Below are positions 7,447-12,937 of a stretch of DNA of 44,237 nucleotides, in pieces. Made by a program: the position numbers and the translations under genes. The notes beneath the pieces were generated by a model. It saw only the letters and a program-made list of their open reading frames with translations. It searched no databases and was not told the origin of the DNA. This DNA is from Lentilactobacillus parafarraginis DSM 18390 = JCM 14109 (lineage in GTDB: Bacteria > Bacillota > Bacilli > Lactobacillales > Lactobacillaceae). Within the stretch, counting starts at the first letter, position 1. Each line of letters starts with the position of its first letter. Location: NCBI RefSeq assembly GCF_001435895.1, contig NZ_AZFZ01000002.1, positions 1 through 44,237 of the forward strand. The letters are read 5' to 3'.

Positions 7447-9180
7447 ATGAGTCAAACTGGAGCAGATGAGTTAGTTCAAGTGTTGGAAGACTGGGGCGTC
7501 AGCCATGTTTATGGATTGCCTGGCGACTCAATTGATACCACCGTGGATGGATTACGAAAGAAATAGGCTAATATCAAGTTTATTCAGGTCCGTCACGAGG
7601 AAGTTGGGGCGCTGGCCGCGGCATCCGAAGCCAAGCTGACTGGAAAGTTAGGCGTTTGCCTTTCAATCGGTGGCCCTGGCGCCATTCACATGCTAAATGG
7701 GTTGTACGATGCCAAGATGGACCACGCGCCGGTCTTAGCGTTACTTGGTCAGGTTAAATCCAACCTGTTAAATACCGACTACTTTCAAGAAGTTAATACG
7801 CCCAAATTATTTGACGACGTGGCCGTTTACAACCGTGAAATTAAGTCGGTTAAGCAGATTCCCAAGATTGTTGATGAAGCCATTCGTGAGGCTTATGCCC
7901 ACCATGGCGTTGCCGTTTTGACAATTCCCGACGATATTCCAGAGGGCAGCATCAAATCCGCTTATCACTCCTCTGCCAAGTCCTTCCAGTTACCGAAGCC
8001 AACTGCTCCTGATGACCAGGTTACCGAAGCCGTTAAGCTTCTTAACGCGGCTAAAAAGCCAATTGCCTTAATTGGCCGGGGCGCGCGAGATGCCTCAACA
8101 ACTGTTCAGAAATTTGTTGAAACCTATCACATTCCGTTTGTTCAAACATTACCGGCCAAGGGCACCATTCCCGACGACCATCCAAATTCACTGGGTAACG
8201 TTGGCAAGTTGGGAACCAAGCCCGCTTATGAGGCCATGCGGGAAGCGGATATGCTTATTCTGATCGGAACGAATTATCCGTACGTTAACTTTTTGCCAAA
8301 ACCGGGTAAGGCAAAGTGTGTTCAGATTGAAATGAACCCACTGAATTTAAACCGCCGTTATCCAGCGGATGTCGCCATCAATGCTGACAGCGGCAAGACC
8401 ATTTCCCAGATTTTGGCAAGCGGCCTGCGCCCAAGTGACGGCCAATTCCTTAAGGCCTGTCAAGAAGACATGGCCAACTGGAATAAGTGGATGCATGGCA
8501 AGCGGTCGCTGGACAGCGAGCCAGTAGCGCCAGAAAGTTTGTTTGACTACGTTCACCAAACCGCCCCTAAAAATACCGTCTTTTCAATTGATGTTGGAAC
8601 GGCAACGTCTTGGAGCGCGCGGTTCCTGCCAATCGAGCAAAACCAAAAGTTTCTCATTTCCGCAAACTTGGGAACGATGGGGTGCGCATTGCCCGGGGCA
8701 ATTGCCGCTCAAGCAGCTTACCCTAATCGACCAACCATCGCGATCAATGGTGATGGCGCGTTTGCAATGGTTATGGAAGATTTCGTTACCGCCGTTAAAT
8801 ACAAGATGCCACTGATCTGCATCGTGCTGAATAACCAGAAGCTCGCCTTTATCGAATACGAGCAACAAGAAGCCGGCCAGCTGAATTATCAAATCGACTT
8901 AAAAGATGTTGATTACGCAAAGTTCGCCGACGCTTGCGGTGGTGTTGGGATTACCGCTAAAAGTAATGCCGAATTTCGATCTGCGCTGGACCGGGCTTAT
9001 AAGATCACTGACCGTCCAGTTCTCATTAACACCTACGTTGCCGATAACGCTCCGCTTCCAGGTAAAATCGTCAATAGTGAAGCAGCCGGATACCTGTCAT
9101 TTGGGCTCCAATACGTTGGCAAGCACCACAAGATTCCGGAGTTGCCACCATTGAAAGATATCATGAGACAATTCTTCTAA
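7447..9180 (+). pseudogene. Pyruvate oxidase gene interrupted by one in-frame amber stop
   Basis: A reading frame of about 577 codons encoding a thiamine-diphosphate/FAD pyruvate oxidase (pyruvate + Pi + O2 to acetyl phosphate + CO2 + H2O2). The start at 7447 (MSQTGADELVQVLEDWG) has GGGAG upstream. Codon 40, at 7564-7566, is TAG between GLRKK and ANIKFIQVRHEE; a single C-to-T change from CAG (Gln) would explain it. The frame then stays open to 9180 with the TPP-binding region INGDGAFAMVMEDF intact. An internal ATG at 7690 could only give a protein lacking the catalytic glutamate region (VRHEEVG). It is a paralogue of the intact gene at 42096. A sequencing error, recent inactivation, or readthrough are all possible. 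Confidence 0.85.
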
Positions 9181-10266: not shown

Positions 10267-11166
10267 TTAGTATGCCACAATGGTTAGCTTCGGCTTCCAG
10301 GTAGTACCAGACCGATCCGGAACAATGTACATCCCAAAGTGCTGCTGGCCGGACTGCTGGGCAACCCGTTTCACTTGCAAATAAACGGTTACCGCATAGT
10401 ACCGTAATGCATTGGTATCCTTATGTTTTAACCAGTACGCATAGTAACCGCCCATGGTTTTGGTATCGACATCCTTAACGGTAAAGCTCAGTGCAGTTGG
10501 ACTGGCAATTCCGGCCTTTGTTGCGGCATCTTTGTTGCTGATATCCTGAGTTGCCAGCAATTTCGCCATTGTTGAAAGTTTGGGATCATAGGTTCCCTTC
10601 CCCTGCATGTAACCCGTGACCTGTTCGGTAACCAGGTTTGCAAACTGGGATTGCGGCAAGTTTGCAAGGGTCTTCAAATTATCCCGGAAGAAATCCAGCT
10701 TATTTGCCAACGTGTAAGGCATCACTGCCTTAAGCGCGGTCCCTTTATAATCGGGATTCAGACCCTTGGTTAGCGCTCCTCGCCACACATAGCCCGTAAC
10801 GGCACTATATGGTGAATAGAGTTCGTAATAAACGTTGCTGCGATTACCGTGCTTGATTACAACGCTGTTTTTAACATACCATGTCGTTTTAGGATAATTC
10901 TTCAATTTATGTAACGGTTTGGTATGAGTCGCGTTCCACATATATGCGGAACTGCCTGACAGCGCGTAATAAGCCACTGCCTCTTTGCGGTTCAAAAATT
11001 TTGTCCAAACATAATTCTGATTGGAAACAACGTTCGTGCTCGATTGTGAACTTGTTTGTGCACCTGTTTTCACTTGTGATTGCGATTTGTCAGCTGCTTG
11101 TACCGAGCCGTTGGCCATCACCCACGCCAACCCCAGTGCAACAACCATCCATCCAATTTTCTTCAA
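10267..11166 (-). CDS. Secreted protein of unknown function with SH3/GW-like surface repeats
   Basis: A 299-residue protein with a clear signal peptide (MKKIGWMVVALGLAWVMANG, cleavage probably after VQA, near residue 24), then a Ser/Gln/Thr-rich linker and a Tyr/Trp/Lys-rich region. Phrases such as YYALSGSSAYMWNATHTKP and TTWYVKNSVVIKHG resemble the SH3-like surface-binding modules of lactobacilli. The C-terminal half (residues 140-299) has no motif I know. There is no LPxTG anchor or transmembrane tail, so it is probably released or wall-bound non-covalently. It starts at TTG, with a perfect AGGAGG eight bases upstream. A terminator at 11257-11293 separates it from the monooxygenase gene. 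TATAAT at 11234-11239 may be its -10 box. Confidence 0.75.
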   Translation of the reverse strand: MKKIGWMVVALGLAWVMANGSVQAADKSQSQVKTGAQTSSQSSTNVVSNQNYVWTKFLNRKEAVAYYALSGSSAYMWNATHTKPLHKLKNYPKTTWYVKNSVVIKHGNRSNVYYELYSPYSAVTGYVWRGALTKGLNPDYKGTALKAVMPYTLANKLDFFRDNLKTLANLPQSQFANLVTEQVTGYMQGKGTYDPKLSTMAKLLATQDISNKDAATKAGIASPTALSFTVKDVDTKTMGGYYAYWLKHKDTNALRYYAVTVYLQVKRVAQQSGQQHFGMYIVPDRSGTTWKPKLTIVAY

Positions 11167-11256: not shown

Positions 11257-11293
11257 AAAAAATGCCCATCACAATTAAGTGGTGAACATTTTT
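11257..11293. terminator. Terminator after the TPP-riboswitch monooxygenase unit
   Basis: Arms AAAAATG and CATTTTT enclose an inner ATCAC/GTGGT stem; on the minus strand the hairpin ends in a T run. It isolates the monooxygenase gene from the secreted-protein gene, so the riboswitch probably controls one gene only. Confidence 0.6.
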
Positions 11294-11319: not shown

Positions 11320-12624
11320 TCACTTATTTGGTATTGTCAGTCCCAAGTTGTCCCGCAGCGTTGTTCCGGAGTATTCTTTTCTGAACAATCCCCGCTTCTG
11401 CAAAATTGGTACCACGTGGTCAACCATATCTTCCAGTGACTCCGGATAGGTTGGCGCCATGATGTTAAACCCATCGGCAGCCCCATTTTCAAACCACTTC
11501 TGCATCATGTCGGCCACCTCTTCCGGAGCCCCGACAACGGTTGCATGACCACCGCCCGCAGCTAGTCGCTGGAACAGCTGCCTTGCCGTTGGATGTTCCG
11601 TATCAACGATCCGTTTGATGACCTCATAACGTCCCTTTGGCCCAGAAAATTCCCGAACATCGGGTAATTCCGGTACCGGCGCATCTAAGTCCCATTGCTT
11701 AACGTCCTGACCCAGGAAATCACCCAATTGGGCAACCGAATCTTCCAATGGTAACAATTCATCCAAAGCAGCCTGTTTGCGAACCGCTTCCTCATGCGTG
11801 CTGCCAACATAGGGAACCAGTCCCGGCAAAATGGCAGGCACATCGGTTGGCCGCCGGTATCTGGCCGCCTTAGTCTTTAAGTCCTGGTAGTAATTCTGGG
11901 CCTCCTGCATGTCCCAAGCCACTGAGTAGATTGCCTCAGCGTACTTTGCCCCGAGGTTCTTGCCCTGAGCCGATTGACCTGCTTGAAACAAAACCGGTCT
12001 TCCCTGGGGACCAGATGGAATATTTAAAGGCCCCCGAACGTTGAAAAATTCACCATGATGATTAATTTCATGAATTTTTGACCGATCAAGCCACCGGTCA
12101 TGCTCAGCATCATTAATAATTGACTCAGCCGGAAATGAATCCCAGAGTTCAATCATCGTGTGAATAAATTCGTCAGCCCGCAGATATCGTTCCGCATGGC
12201 TTGGCAACTCGTCCATACCGTGATTTTGGGCCTCCTCGTCAAACATCGAGGTAATCACGTTAACGCCTGCGCGGCCGTGGCTAATATGATCCAGACTGGT
12301 AATGAGCCGCGCCATATTGTATGGATCGTAAAGCGTAGATGAAACCGTTGGGACCAACCCAATATGGCTGGTCTTGGTTGCCATCGCCGTGACCGCAGTA
12401 ATTGGTTCCAGGAAGTAGGAAACCCCGCCATAGTAGCCACCCATGATTGATTGACCGTCCGCAAAGAAGATTGTATCAAACTTTCCGCGTTCGGCTAATT
12501 GAGCTAATTTTTCAAAGTATTCGATTTGGCCAACTTGATCGATGGTTGAATGAGGTCGCCGCCAAGCAGCCCCATGATGGCCAGAACTGAATAGGAGTGC
12601 GCCGAGATGCATTTGTTTTCTCAT
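11320..12624 (-). CDS. Flavin-dependent monooxygenase, luciferase-like family (NtaA/SnaA/DszA type)
   Basis: A 434-residue bacterial-luciferase-like (LLM) TIM-barrel oxidase of the nitrilotriacetate monooxygenase (NtaA/DszA) group. These enzymes use reduced FMN from a partner reductase to attack amines or organosulfur compounds. Typical features are the opening QMHLGALLFSSGHHGAAWRRP, cut here to its first half QMHLGALLFSSG, then FDTIFFADG near residue 50, GRAGVNVITSM near residue 128 and PVLFQAGQSAQGKNLGA, cut to FQAGQSAQG. No reductase gene is nearby. RBS is GGAGG just before the ATG. A TPP riboswitch with a terminator precedes it, so expression should fall when thiamine diphosphate is plentiful; this points to thiamine or thiamine-fragment salvage, but the substrate is unknown. 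Confidence 0.85.
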   Translation of the reverse strand: MRKQMHLGALLFSSGHHGAAWRRPHSTIDQVGQIEYFEKLAQLAERGKFDTIFFADGQSIMGGYYGGVSYFLEPITAVTAMATKTSHIGLVPTVSSTLYDPYNMARLITSLDHISHGRAGVNVITSMFDEEAQNHGMDELPSHAERYLRADEFIHTMIELWDSFPAESIINDAEHDRWLDRSKIHEINHHGEFFNVRGPLNIPSGPQGRPVLFQAGQSAQGKNLGAKYAEAIYSVAWDMQEAQNYYQDLKTKAARYRRPTDVPAILPGLVPYVGSTHEEAVRKQAALDELLPLEDSVAQLGDFLGQDVKQWDLDAPVPELPDVREFSGPKGRYEVIKRIVDTEHPTARQLFQRLAAGGGHATVVGAPEEVADMMQKWFENGAADGFNIMAPTYPESLEDMVDHVVPILQKRGLFRKEYSGTTLRDNLGLTIPNK

Positions 12625-12726
12625 AATTTCCTCCGTTTATTAAAAATAATTTAATAACTTCCAATTTACCACATTTTCGCGGCCAATTCCTCCCTATTTA
12701 GGCCCTCCAGCGCAAAAATTAAGCAT

Positions 12727-12768
12727 CAAAAAAAGCCCACCTTCTGTTAACACAGCGTAGTGGACTTT
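12727..12768 (-). terminator. Intrinsic terminator of the TPP riboswitch expression platform
   Basis: On the minus strand AGTCCAC (12761-12767) pairs with GTGGGCT ahead of a run of seven or more Ts (12728-12734). It lies between the TPP aptamer and the monooxygenase start, as expected for ligand-induced transcription termination. Confidence 0.8.
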
Positions 12769-12801
12769 CAGACATTTCCCCAAAGTAAAGAGTTGCTGGA
12801 A

Positions 12802-12878
12802 TGGTTCTCCCTTCGGCAGTACTAACTGCATCAGGTTCCATGGGTTTTTCTCAGCTTAACTAAAAGCACCCCAGACCA
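12802..12878 (-). ncRNA. TPP (THI-element) riboswitch aptamer
   Basis: On the minus strand the conserved parts of the thiamine diphosphate aptamer occur in order: TGGT closing stem, GGGGTGC, CTGAGA, ACCC, GAACCTGAT, the variable stem GCAGTTAGTACTGC, then GAAGGGA and the closing ACCA. All core strings match the family consensus. A terminator follows 34 bases downstream, then the LLM monooxygenase gene. Ligand binding should favour termination. No thiamine-biosynthesis or thiamine-transport gene is in the transcript it controls. Confidence 0.93.
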
Positions 12879-12908
12879 CAAAAATAGATTAAATTTGACT
12901 ACAATTTA

Positions 12909-12937
12909 ATTTAAGCCGACTCAATTCAAAAAGTCAA
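12909..12937 (-). promoter_or_regulatory. Promoter of the TPP-riboswitch transcript
   Basis: Minus-strand TTGACT (12932-12937), 17-bp spacer, TTAAAT (12909-12914), about 30 bases before the aptamer. Confidence 0.6.

Follow-up and report, generated by a model that had tools for sequence, protein, structure and literature searches.

A luciferase-like monooxygenase behind a TPP riboswitch as a candidate oxidative step of thiamine-moiety salvage

Why does a luciferase-like flavin monooxygenase stand behind a TPP riboswitch, and which part of thiamine metabolism could it serve? The question is raised by a locus on the minus strand of a 44,237-nucleotide stretch of DNA from Lentilactobacillus parafarraginis DSM 18390 = JCM 14109, which is referred to below as the window. 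The preliminary description had reported an aptamer, a leader terminator, one monooxygenase gene and a closing terminator, and the Rfam, ORF and folding analyses confirm these elements and their positions:

12937-12908, minus strand: promoter-like hexamers TTGACT-18-TAAATT, 9/12 consensus matches in a consensus scan
12883-12790, minus strand: TPP riboswitch aptamer RF00059, 68.3 bits against a gathering score of 54.3, E 1.9e-11
12768-12732, minus strand: predicted intrinsic terminator of the leader, fold -19 kcal/mol, z -2.78, with U tract
12624-11320, minus strand: NtaA/DszA-family FMN-dependent luciferase-like monooxygenase, termed THI-LLM, ORF of 434 aa with ATG start
about 11294-11257, minus strand: predicted terminator after the THI-LLM gene, fold -14.8 kcal/mol, z -3.33, with U tract

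The RF00059 match covers the full model length (model 1-105), and in an alignment the invariant core columns of the window aptamer are common to 16 other TPP aptamers. According to folding, the 5' arm of the leader terminator (12766-12760) can instead pair with the 5' arm of the aptamer P1 helix (12879-12873), which gives an antiterminator. The two arms are paired when transcripts of nascent length, with ends at 12760-12740, are folded; in the full-length leader the aptamer and the terminator fold together. Such a leader is predicted to be a standard platform that terminates when TPP is bound, with mutually exclusive antiterminator and terminator, and TPP binding and repression are its predicted functions. 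A chance match to RF00059 is ruled out by the score relative to the gathering threshold and by the leader platform. The promoter-like pair is weak, since the consensus scan finds 1 such site against a shuffle mean of 3.1, i.e. fewer than chance. The terminator pattern scan is near chance (3 found, shuffle mean 2.3), lists neither of the two minus-strand hairpins and gives an overlapping plus-strand one at 11267-11284; thus, the claim of two terminators rests on the folds. The next minus-strand ORF of at least 80 aa starts at 11166, past the closing hairpin. Elsewhere in the window, a plus-strand ORF (7690-9180) is pyruvate-oxidase-like, a TPP-dependent enzyme type; its PRK08611 match begins at model position 83, with no match to the N-terminal domain.

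THI-LLM has the PF00296 domain and matches TIGR03860 (NtaA/SnaA/DszA) over residues 7-426 with 501.1 bits at a cut-off of 279.7. The AF2 model (mean pLDDT 83.1) has CmoJ, BdsA, NTA monooxygenase and RcaE among its top PDB matches in Foldseek. By score and fold THI-LLM is assigned to TIGR03860, and the use of reduced FMN and O2 is predicted. It is neither SsuD (TIGR03565, 52.7 bits, cut-off 518.2) nor RutA (TIGR03612, 54.3 bits, cut-off 498.3). The best solved match is CmoJ/YtnJ, the N-acetyl-S-alkylcysteine sulfoxide C-S monooxygenase of B. subtilis, which is homologous to THI-LLM over nearly the whole length (Foldseek rank 1, 38% identity; 384.3 bits with the profile of the clade described below). 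RcaE, the riboflavin lyase, and RutA are likewise flavin monooxygenases that act on a vitamin or a pyrimidine; RcaE is of the same fold family (Foldseek rank 16), and RutA is, as its score indicates, only distantly related. To our knowledge, neither of them is under a TPP switch. CmoJ is described, in the accessible text of PMC10863075, as cleaving a C-S bond by flavin/O2 chemistry, which yields an aldehyde and a sulfenic acid, and as having a role in cysteine salvage. Unlike CmoJ, THI-LLM is under TPP control and has an SDR, tenA-ykoE or thi genes as partners.

These partners become visible in the relatives. The ortholog is rare in Lactobacillaceae: it occurs in 4 of the 301 family genomes drawn, own included, and within the genus in 2 of 24 (own and G304). 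The match values of the G304 monooxygenase and riboswitch are identical to those of L. hilgardii. When a large collection of genomes is scanned, four lactobacillar loci with the gene are obtained. All five Lactobacillaceae species in which it was found have a TPP riboswitch with it. The riboswitch lies immediately ahead of the monooxygenase gene in the window, in 'Lactobacillus sp. Sy-1', where a flavodoxin-fold oxidoreductase gene follows, and in L. hilgardii, where the order is riboswitch-LLM-tenA-ykoE (LLM being the monooxygenase). In S. silagincola and S. mixtipabuli the riboswitch is followed by tenA-ykoE-LLM. Co-transcription with thiamine genes is read here from gene order and strand. 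The conserved riboswitch and the shared units of the relatives make THI-LLM a predicted member of the thiamin salvage regulon. The L. hilgardii frame is broken in the records examined (L027:8001-9326; L036/L037), and the frame-shift is either decay or an assembly error.

The absence of a thiamine gene from the unit, as described earlier, thus holds for the window's genome and fails for the three relatives with tenA-ykoE in the unit. Nor is a single orphan gene the typical arrangement, the relatives having tenA-ykoE (L025, L026, L027), an SDR or whole thi operons. Because of these neighbours, of the two roles initially offered, breakdown of a thiamine analogue and salvage of a moiety, we consider salvage, most likely of the pyrimidine, the likelier one and analogue disposal the less likely.

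Beyond the family, 35 of 295 genomes of the order Lactobacillales match at 1e-40, with identity of at most 41% among the matches listed besides own, and a TPP riboswitch is found at 0 of the 29 Lactobacillales loci examined besides own (L038-L066). In the class Bacilli, 105 of 299 genomes have a match. We examined 29 listed Bacilli loci besides own (L067-L095), each being the best match of its genome, and 18 of them have, within their 1.5-kb flanks, a TPP riboswitch that precedes an SDR-LLM pair; in L075, one of the Bacilli loci, riboswitch and SDR are separated by a short thiM-like remnant. At a nineteenth locus (L082/L096, LLM interrupted) the riboswitch heads an operon thiE/tenI-thiO-thiG-thiF-SDR-LLM. 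The other ten loci comprise L067 and L068, which are extra copies, and L088-L095. Of the 58 order and class loci, 20 were scanned with Rfam, which gave a TPP riboswitch in 11; the other calls were made with a model built from 17 TPP aptamers. The gene lies inside thi operons in two genomes (L096, L097). In G650 the order is riboswitch-SDR-LLM-thiM-thiD-thiE-thiW, and neither ThiC nor TenA is found in this genome; hence, apart from uptake, no HMP source but the SDR-LLM pair is visible in it, and G650 is the cleanest natural test case. Among plasmids, 757 records have some match, and riboswitch-SDR-LLM is present in all four records examined (Mesobacillus foraminis, Rhodococcus sp. DMU1 and two of Pseudochrobactrum), where the annotation of the pair goes no further than 'LLM class flavin-dependent oxidoreductase' and '3-oxoacyl-ACP reductase'. 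Outside Lactobacillaceae the arrangement thus occurs in Bacillota, Actinomycetota and Alphaproteobacteria.

A tree of 46 rows, which are a chosen subset, has one clade of 28 rows with support 100/99, and 26 of them have the riboswitch. The earlier 66-row tree agrees (clade of 24 rows, 22 of them riboswitch-linked, 100/98); out of it are four duplicates (L020-L023) and seven broken or short sequences (L027, L030, L036, L037, L052, L054, L082). The two rows of the 28 without riboswitch or SDR neighbour are L067 and L068, and their genomes also carry a copy in a riboswitch-SDR-LLM unit (L155, L154). L088-L095 fall outside the clade. In a phylum-wide profile search 12 of 398 genomes match at E 1e-90, and only own and G558 reach scores like those of the TPP clade. 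A simple history would be a single ancestral TPP-linked enzyme and a later loss; two separate gains of the linkage are possible. Relocation of the riboswitch in this strain only, an option left by the preliminary description, is ruled out by the five Lactobacillaceae species and by the clade over three phyla. A search upstream of the enzyme family, as proposed there for RF00059 and made here with Rfam and with the model from 17 aptamers, gives a riboswitch in 26 of 28 clade rows, and the idea of an oxidative step tied to thiamine status and lying outside the established pathway is strengthened by a pairing kept across three phyla.

Distant homologs of Oceanobacillus (L029, L030, L031, L035; 35-37% identity) lie downstream of SAM riboswitches at 4 of 4 loci, in L031 at a distance of about 840 bases. 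The same enzyme family appears to stand under two riboswitch classes, TPP and SAM.

The window's genome, a 3.08-Mb draft in 254 contigs, has 13 TPP riboswitch matches, 12 of them above the gathering score. Downstream of them lie tenA; thiW; tenA-ykoE-tenA; ykoE; an allantoinase with an NCS1 permease; NCS2 permease-LuxE-LuxC-SDR; ykoEDC; thiS-thiF-thiG with an allantoate-deiminase-like gene; a methyltransferase; thiM-thiD-thiE; an M20 deacylase; a contig end in one case; and the THI-LLM of the window. Gene names are from translations, nine of them also from profile searches; thiW, ykoEDC, thiS/F/G and thiM/D/E are putative names read from the sequences. There are four TenA copies (PF03070). ThiC was searched in all five lactobacilli with the monooxygenase and is found neither in the window's genome nor in the other four. 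Since thiS-thiF-thiG is present and ThiC is not found, it is the pyrimidine branch, and not the thiazole core, that appears to be missing from the window's genome; the same applies to G825, in which the monooxygenase is interrupted.

Several units of this regulon are unusual in their own right. A TPP riboswitch precedes the allantoinase and the NCS1 permease at L012:10774-7932 (minus strand), and at L016:863-3969 (plus strand) another one precedes thiS-thiF-thiG and then the allantoate-deiminase-like gene; ureide breakdown might feed the glyoxylate imine required by ThiG. At L017:8519-7683 (minus strand) a riboswitch stands ahead of a lone SAM-dependent methyltransferase of 236 aa. At L019:1146-2618 (plus strand) a riboswitch-like match of 52.4 bits, under the gathering score, is followed by a single gene, whose product is an M20 deacylase of the ArgE/DapE type (607.5 bits with PRK08596) and may be a formylaminopyrimidine deformylase similar to YlmB.

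An SDR taken from one of the Bacilli units also has a counterpart in the window's genome. Its best match there (45%, 2.7e-66; the next is 33%, 1.7e-29) is the last gene of the NCS2-LuxE-LuxC-SDR operon behind a TPP riboswitch. This operon lies at L013:3162-8093 (G000:C220), and elsewhere at L115-L123. Its LuxC occurs in 10 of 301 Lactobacillaceae genomes, own included, and the riboswitch is ahead of the operon in all ten. The nine other loci have the same gene order from translations, with unusual ORF borders in L122; the riboswitch is single in four, which Rfam confirmed, and tandem in five. In L120 a thiW-like gene follows the operon. From its gene content the operon looks like one that imports a carboxylic acid and reduces it to the alcohol, perhaps carboxy-HMP to HMP. 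SDR relatives behind a TPP riboswitch of their own are found also in Sy-1 and in G109, which belongs to the window's genus and lacks the monooxygenase. All 13 SDRs in the alignment have the Tyr-x-x-x-Lys motif.

An SDR partner for every monooxygenase is not upheld. No SDR relative above background is found in G139, G237 and G304, i.e. three of the five lactobacilli with the gene; tenA adjoins it there and is Cys-less in the two genomes with a readable site. Hence, the partner varies: SDR in some genomes, TenA in others, and both types are present in the window's genome. There, the active-site Cys135 of B. subtilis TenA aligns with Gly in the tenA-ykoE TenA, which does not adjoin the monooxygenase gene in this genome, and the Cys is absent also from the tenA-ykoE TenA of S. 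silagincola and S. mixtipabuli, i.e. from 3 of 4 such proteins; in the fourth, of L. hilgardii, the site is not matched by the pattern. Four of the five lactobacilli have a weak-scoring TenA type; Sy-1 is the one without it and has the SDR instead. TenA is present in 19 of the 20 genomes tested (G650 being the exception), and the SDR-LLM module is mostly additional to it. Absence of ThiC is not a rule for the module either, as 7 of the 21 tested Bacilli genomes with the riboswitch-SDR-LLM unit have ThiC (one of the seven units is interrupted).

We suggest that THI-LLM is the FMNH2/O2-dependent step of a TPP-repressed salvage that regenerates HMP from a damaged or derivatised pyrimidine half, in bacteria that in many cases have no ThiC, an explanation to which we give an even chance. 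Its parts differ in strength. The riboswitch, the regulon, the operon contexts, the clade membership and the SDR relationship are computed results, and the steps of the chemistry are proposals. That THI-LLM belongs to thiamine-moiety salvage is highly probable. The pyrimidine rather than the thiazole side is fairly likely, based on the ThiC-less genomes with thiazole genes (the window's and G825) and on the linkage to tenA-ykoE. An aldehyde intermediate is somewhat doubtful; it is proposed, with HMP as the product, since the closest solved relative CmoJ makes an aldehyde and since the monooxygenase is paired with a reductase.

The proposed route would run as follows. When TPP is scarce, the leader would antiterminate and THI-LLM would be made. 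With reduced FMN supplied by a reductase, perhaps in Sy-1 by the flavodoxin-fold oxidoreductase encoded after it, the enzyme would oxidise the CH2 of a 5-(CH2-X) substituted 4-amino-2-methylpyrimidine, X being S-, N- or sulfonate-linked. The C-X bond would be broken with formation of 4-amino-2-methylpyrimidine-5-carbaldehyde, which the SDR would reduce to HMP for use by ThiD and ThiE. In the window's genome, the NCS2 permease would import the matching carboxylic acid and LuxE/LuxC would reduce it to the same aldehyde. The specific X is a guess; one candidate substrate is sulfite-cleaved thiamine, which is a pyrimidinylmethanesulfonate. An acid-reducing LuxE/LuxC pair feeding the same SDR type suits the aldehyde scheme well. 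The broader picture would be an undescribed redox salvage of the pyrimidine half that converges on one aldehyde, reached by THI-LLM from CH2-substituted products and by LuxE/LuxC from the acid and passed by the SDR to HMP, with the LLM-SDR arm in Bacillota, Actinomycetota and Alphaproteobacteria; we hold it tentatively, with more doubt than confidence. The aldehyde-SDR scheme as written does not cover G139, G237 and G304, since they have no SDR relative and have tenA next to the monooxygenase instead. Further points against the salvage reading are the ThiC of a third of the Bacilli carriers, the near-constant TenA and the broken frames in L. hilgardii and G825. The oxygen that such an enzyme requires is also often scarce where lactobacilli grow, which counts against the reading as well.

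The three genomes left out of the scheme lend themselves to another reading, in which the monooxygenase prepares a substrate of TenA: it would oxidise, for example, damaged thiamine or an N-substituted aminomethylpyrimidine for the hydrolase, with no aldehyde for an SDR. It is in keeping with this reading that the three lactobacilli with tenA-ykoE in the unit are those without SDR, that the tenA-ykoE TenA of the window's genome, S. silagincola and S. mixtipabuli is Cys-less, and that Sy-1, with its SDR, lacks the weak-scoring type of the other four. Cys-less TenA_E proteins are reported, in the accessible text of PMC5635689 and PMC10470507, to be active on FAMP/AmMP. Against it, the SDR is the constant partner in 19 Bacilli clade loci (L067 and L068 aside) and in the four plasmid records, and G650 manages without any TenA found; the L. 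hilgardii site escapes the pattern, the TenA_E placement is only a candidate one, and the ocean data in the accessible part of PMC10470507 give no tenA_E from Firmicutes. We regard this reading as unlikely, though with a real share of the probability. Salvage of the thiazole half is less probable still. There, the substrate would be, for example, a thiazole carboxylate or thiamine oxidised at the hydroxyethyl side, and the SDR would make the hydroxyethyl alcohol. The thiM and thiW of the G650 operon, the thiG-thiF ahead of SDR-LLM in G825, the thiM-like remnant of L075 and the thiW-like gene of L120 are in line with it. The window's genome and G825 have, however, thiazole synthesis genes and no ThiC, ykoE belongs to a pyrimidine/thiamine carrier, and the permease of the LuxEC operon is a nucleobase-type NCS2 carrier. 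TenA, moreover, acts on the pyrimidine according to the accessible text of PMC10470507 and PMC5635689.

A further reading is disposal, in which the enzyme would be made at low TPP to remove damaged thiamine or toxic analogues of it. Breakdown of an analogue was the first option of the preliminary description, and a TPP-switched oxygenase without an obvious product would fit it; location within biosynthesis and salvage operons and the reductase partner favour recovery of the moiety, and we find disposal improbable. We give least weight to ordinary sulfur scavenging by a C-S monooxygenase with an incidental riboswitch, which is very improbable. It draws on the Oceanobacillus relatives behind SAM riboswitches (4/4 loci) and on other distant relatives beside apparent sulfonate-type ABC genes, but three Oceanobacillus rows (L030 was dropped as too short) and the eight rows L088-L095 fall outside the TPP clade, and the TPP linkage is conserved over three phyla.

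How does the proposed pyrimidine salvage relate to what is known? The TenA/YlmB salvage (FAMP to AmMP to HMP) belongs to the same regulon and has the same presumed end product, and its tenA shares the transcription unit with the monooxygenase in three lactobacilli. That route is hydrolytic, as the accessible text of PMC10470507 and PMC5635689 describes; unlike it, the present module adds an oxygenase and a reductase. In the literature searched, which was taken at listings and opening lines of abstracts and did not extend to supplementary regulon tables or to the 2002 regulon paper, no listed paper links such a monooxygenase to a TPP riboswitch, and a term search does not meet 'monooxygenase' in the accessible main text of PMC3766115. 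The same search, with the 2002 paper outside its scope, gives no link between oarX and thiamine among the papers listed. A TPP-regulated oxidoreductase named 'oarX' is reportedly described by Rodionov et al. in 2002 or in RegPrecise; we know of no substrate assigned to it. It may be the SDR partner, and TPP control of the SDR would in that case already be in print. Since regulon tables may name the monooxygenase and oarX may be the SDR, we file the TPP-linked enzyme as an addition to thiamine salvage and not as a categorically new system.

Thiamine degrades readily, and recovery of its fragments can cover the vitamin need of cells without HMP synthesis, as the accessible text of PMC10470507 and PMC5635689 indicates. 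With a monooxygenase-reductase pair tied to the TPP regulon, new vitamin B1 biochemistry is predicted in a concrete form that can be assayed, and luciferase-like and LuxC/LuxE-like enzymes would thereby be linked to vitamin salvage.
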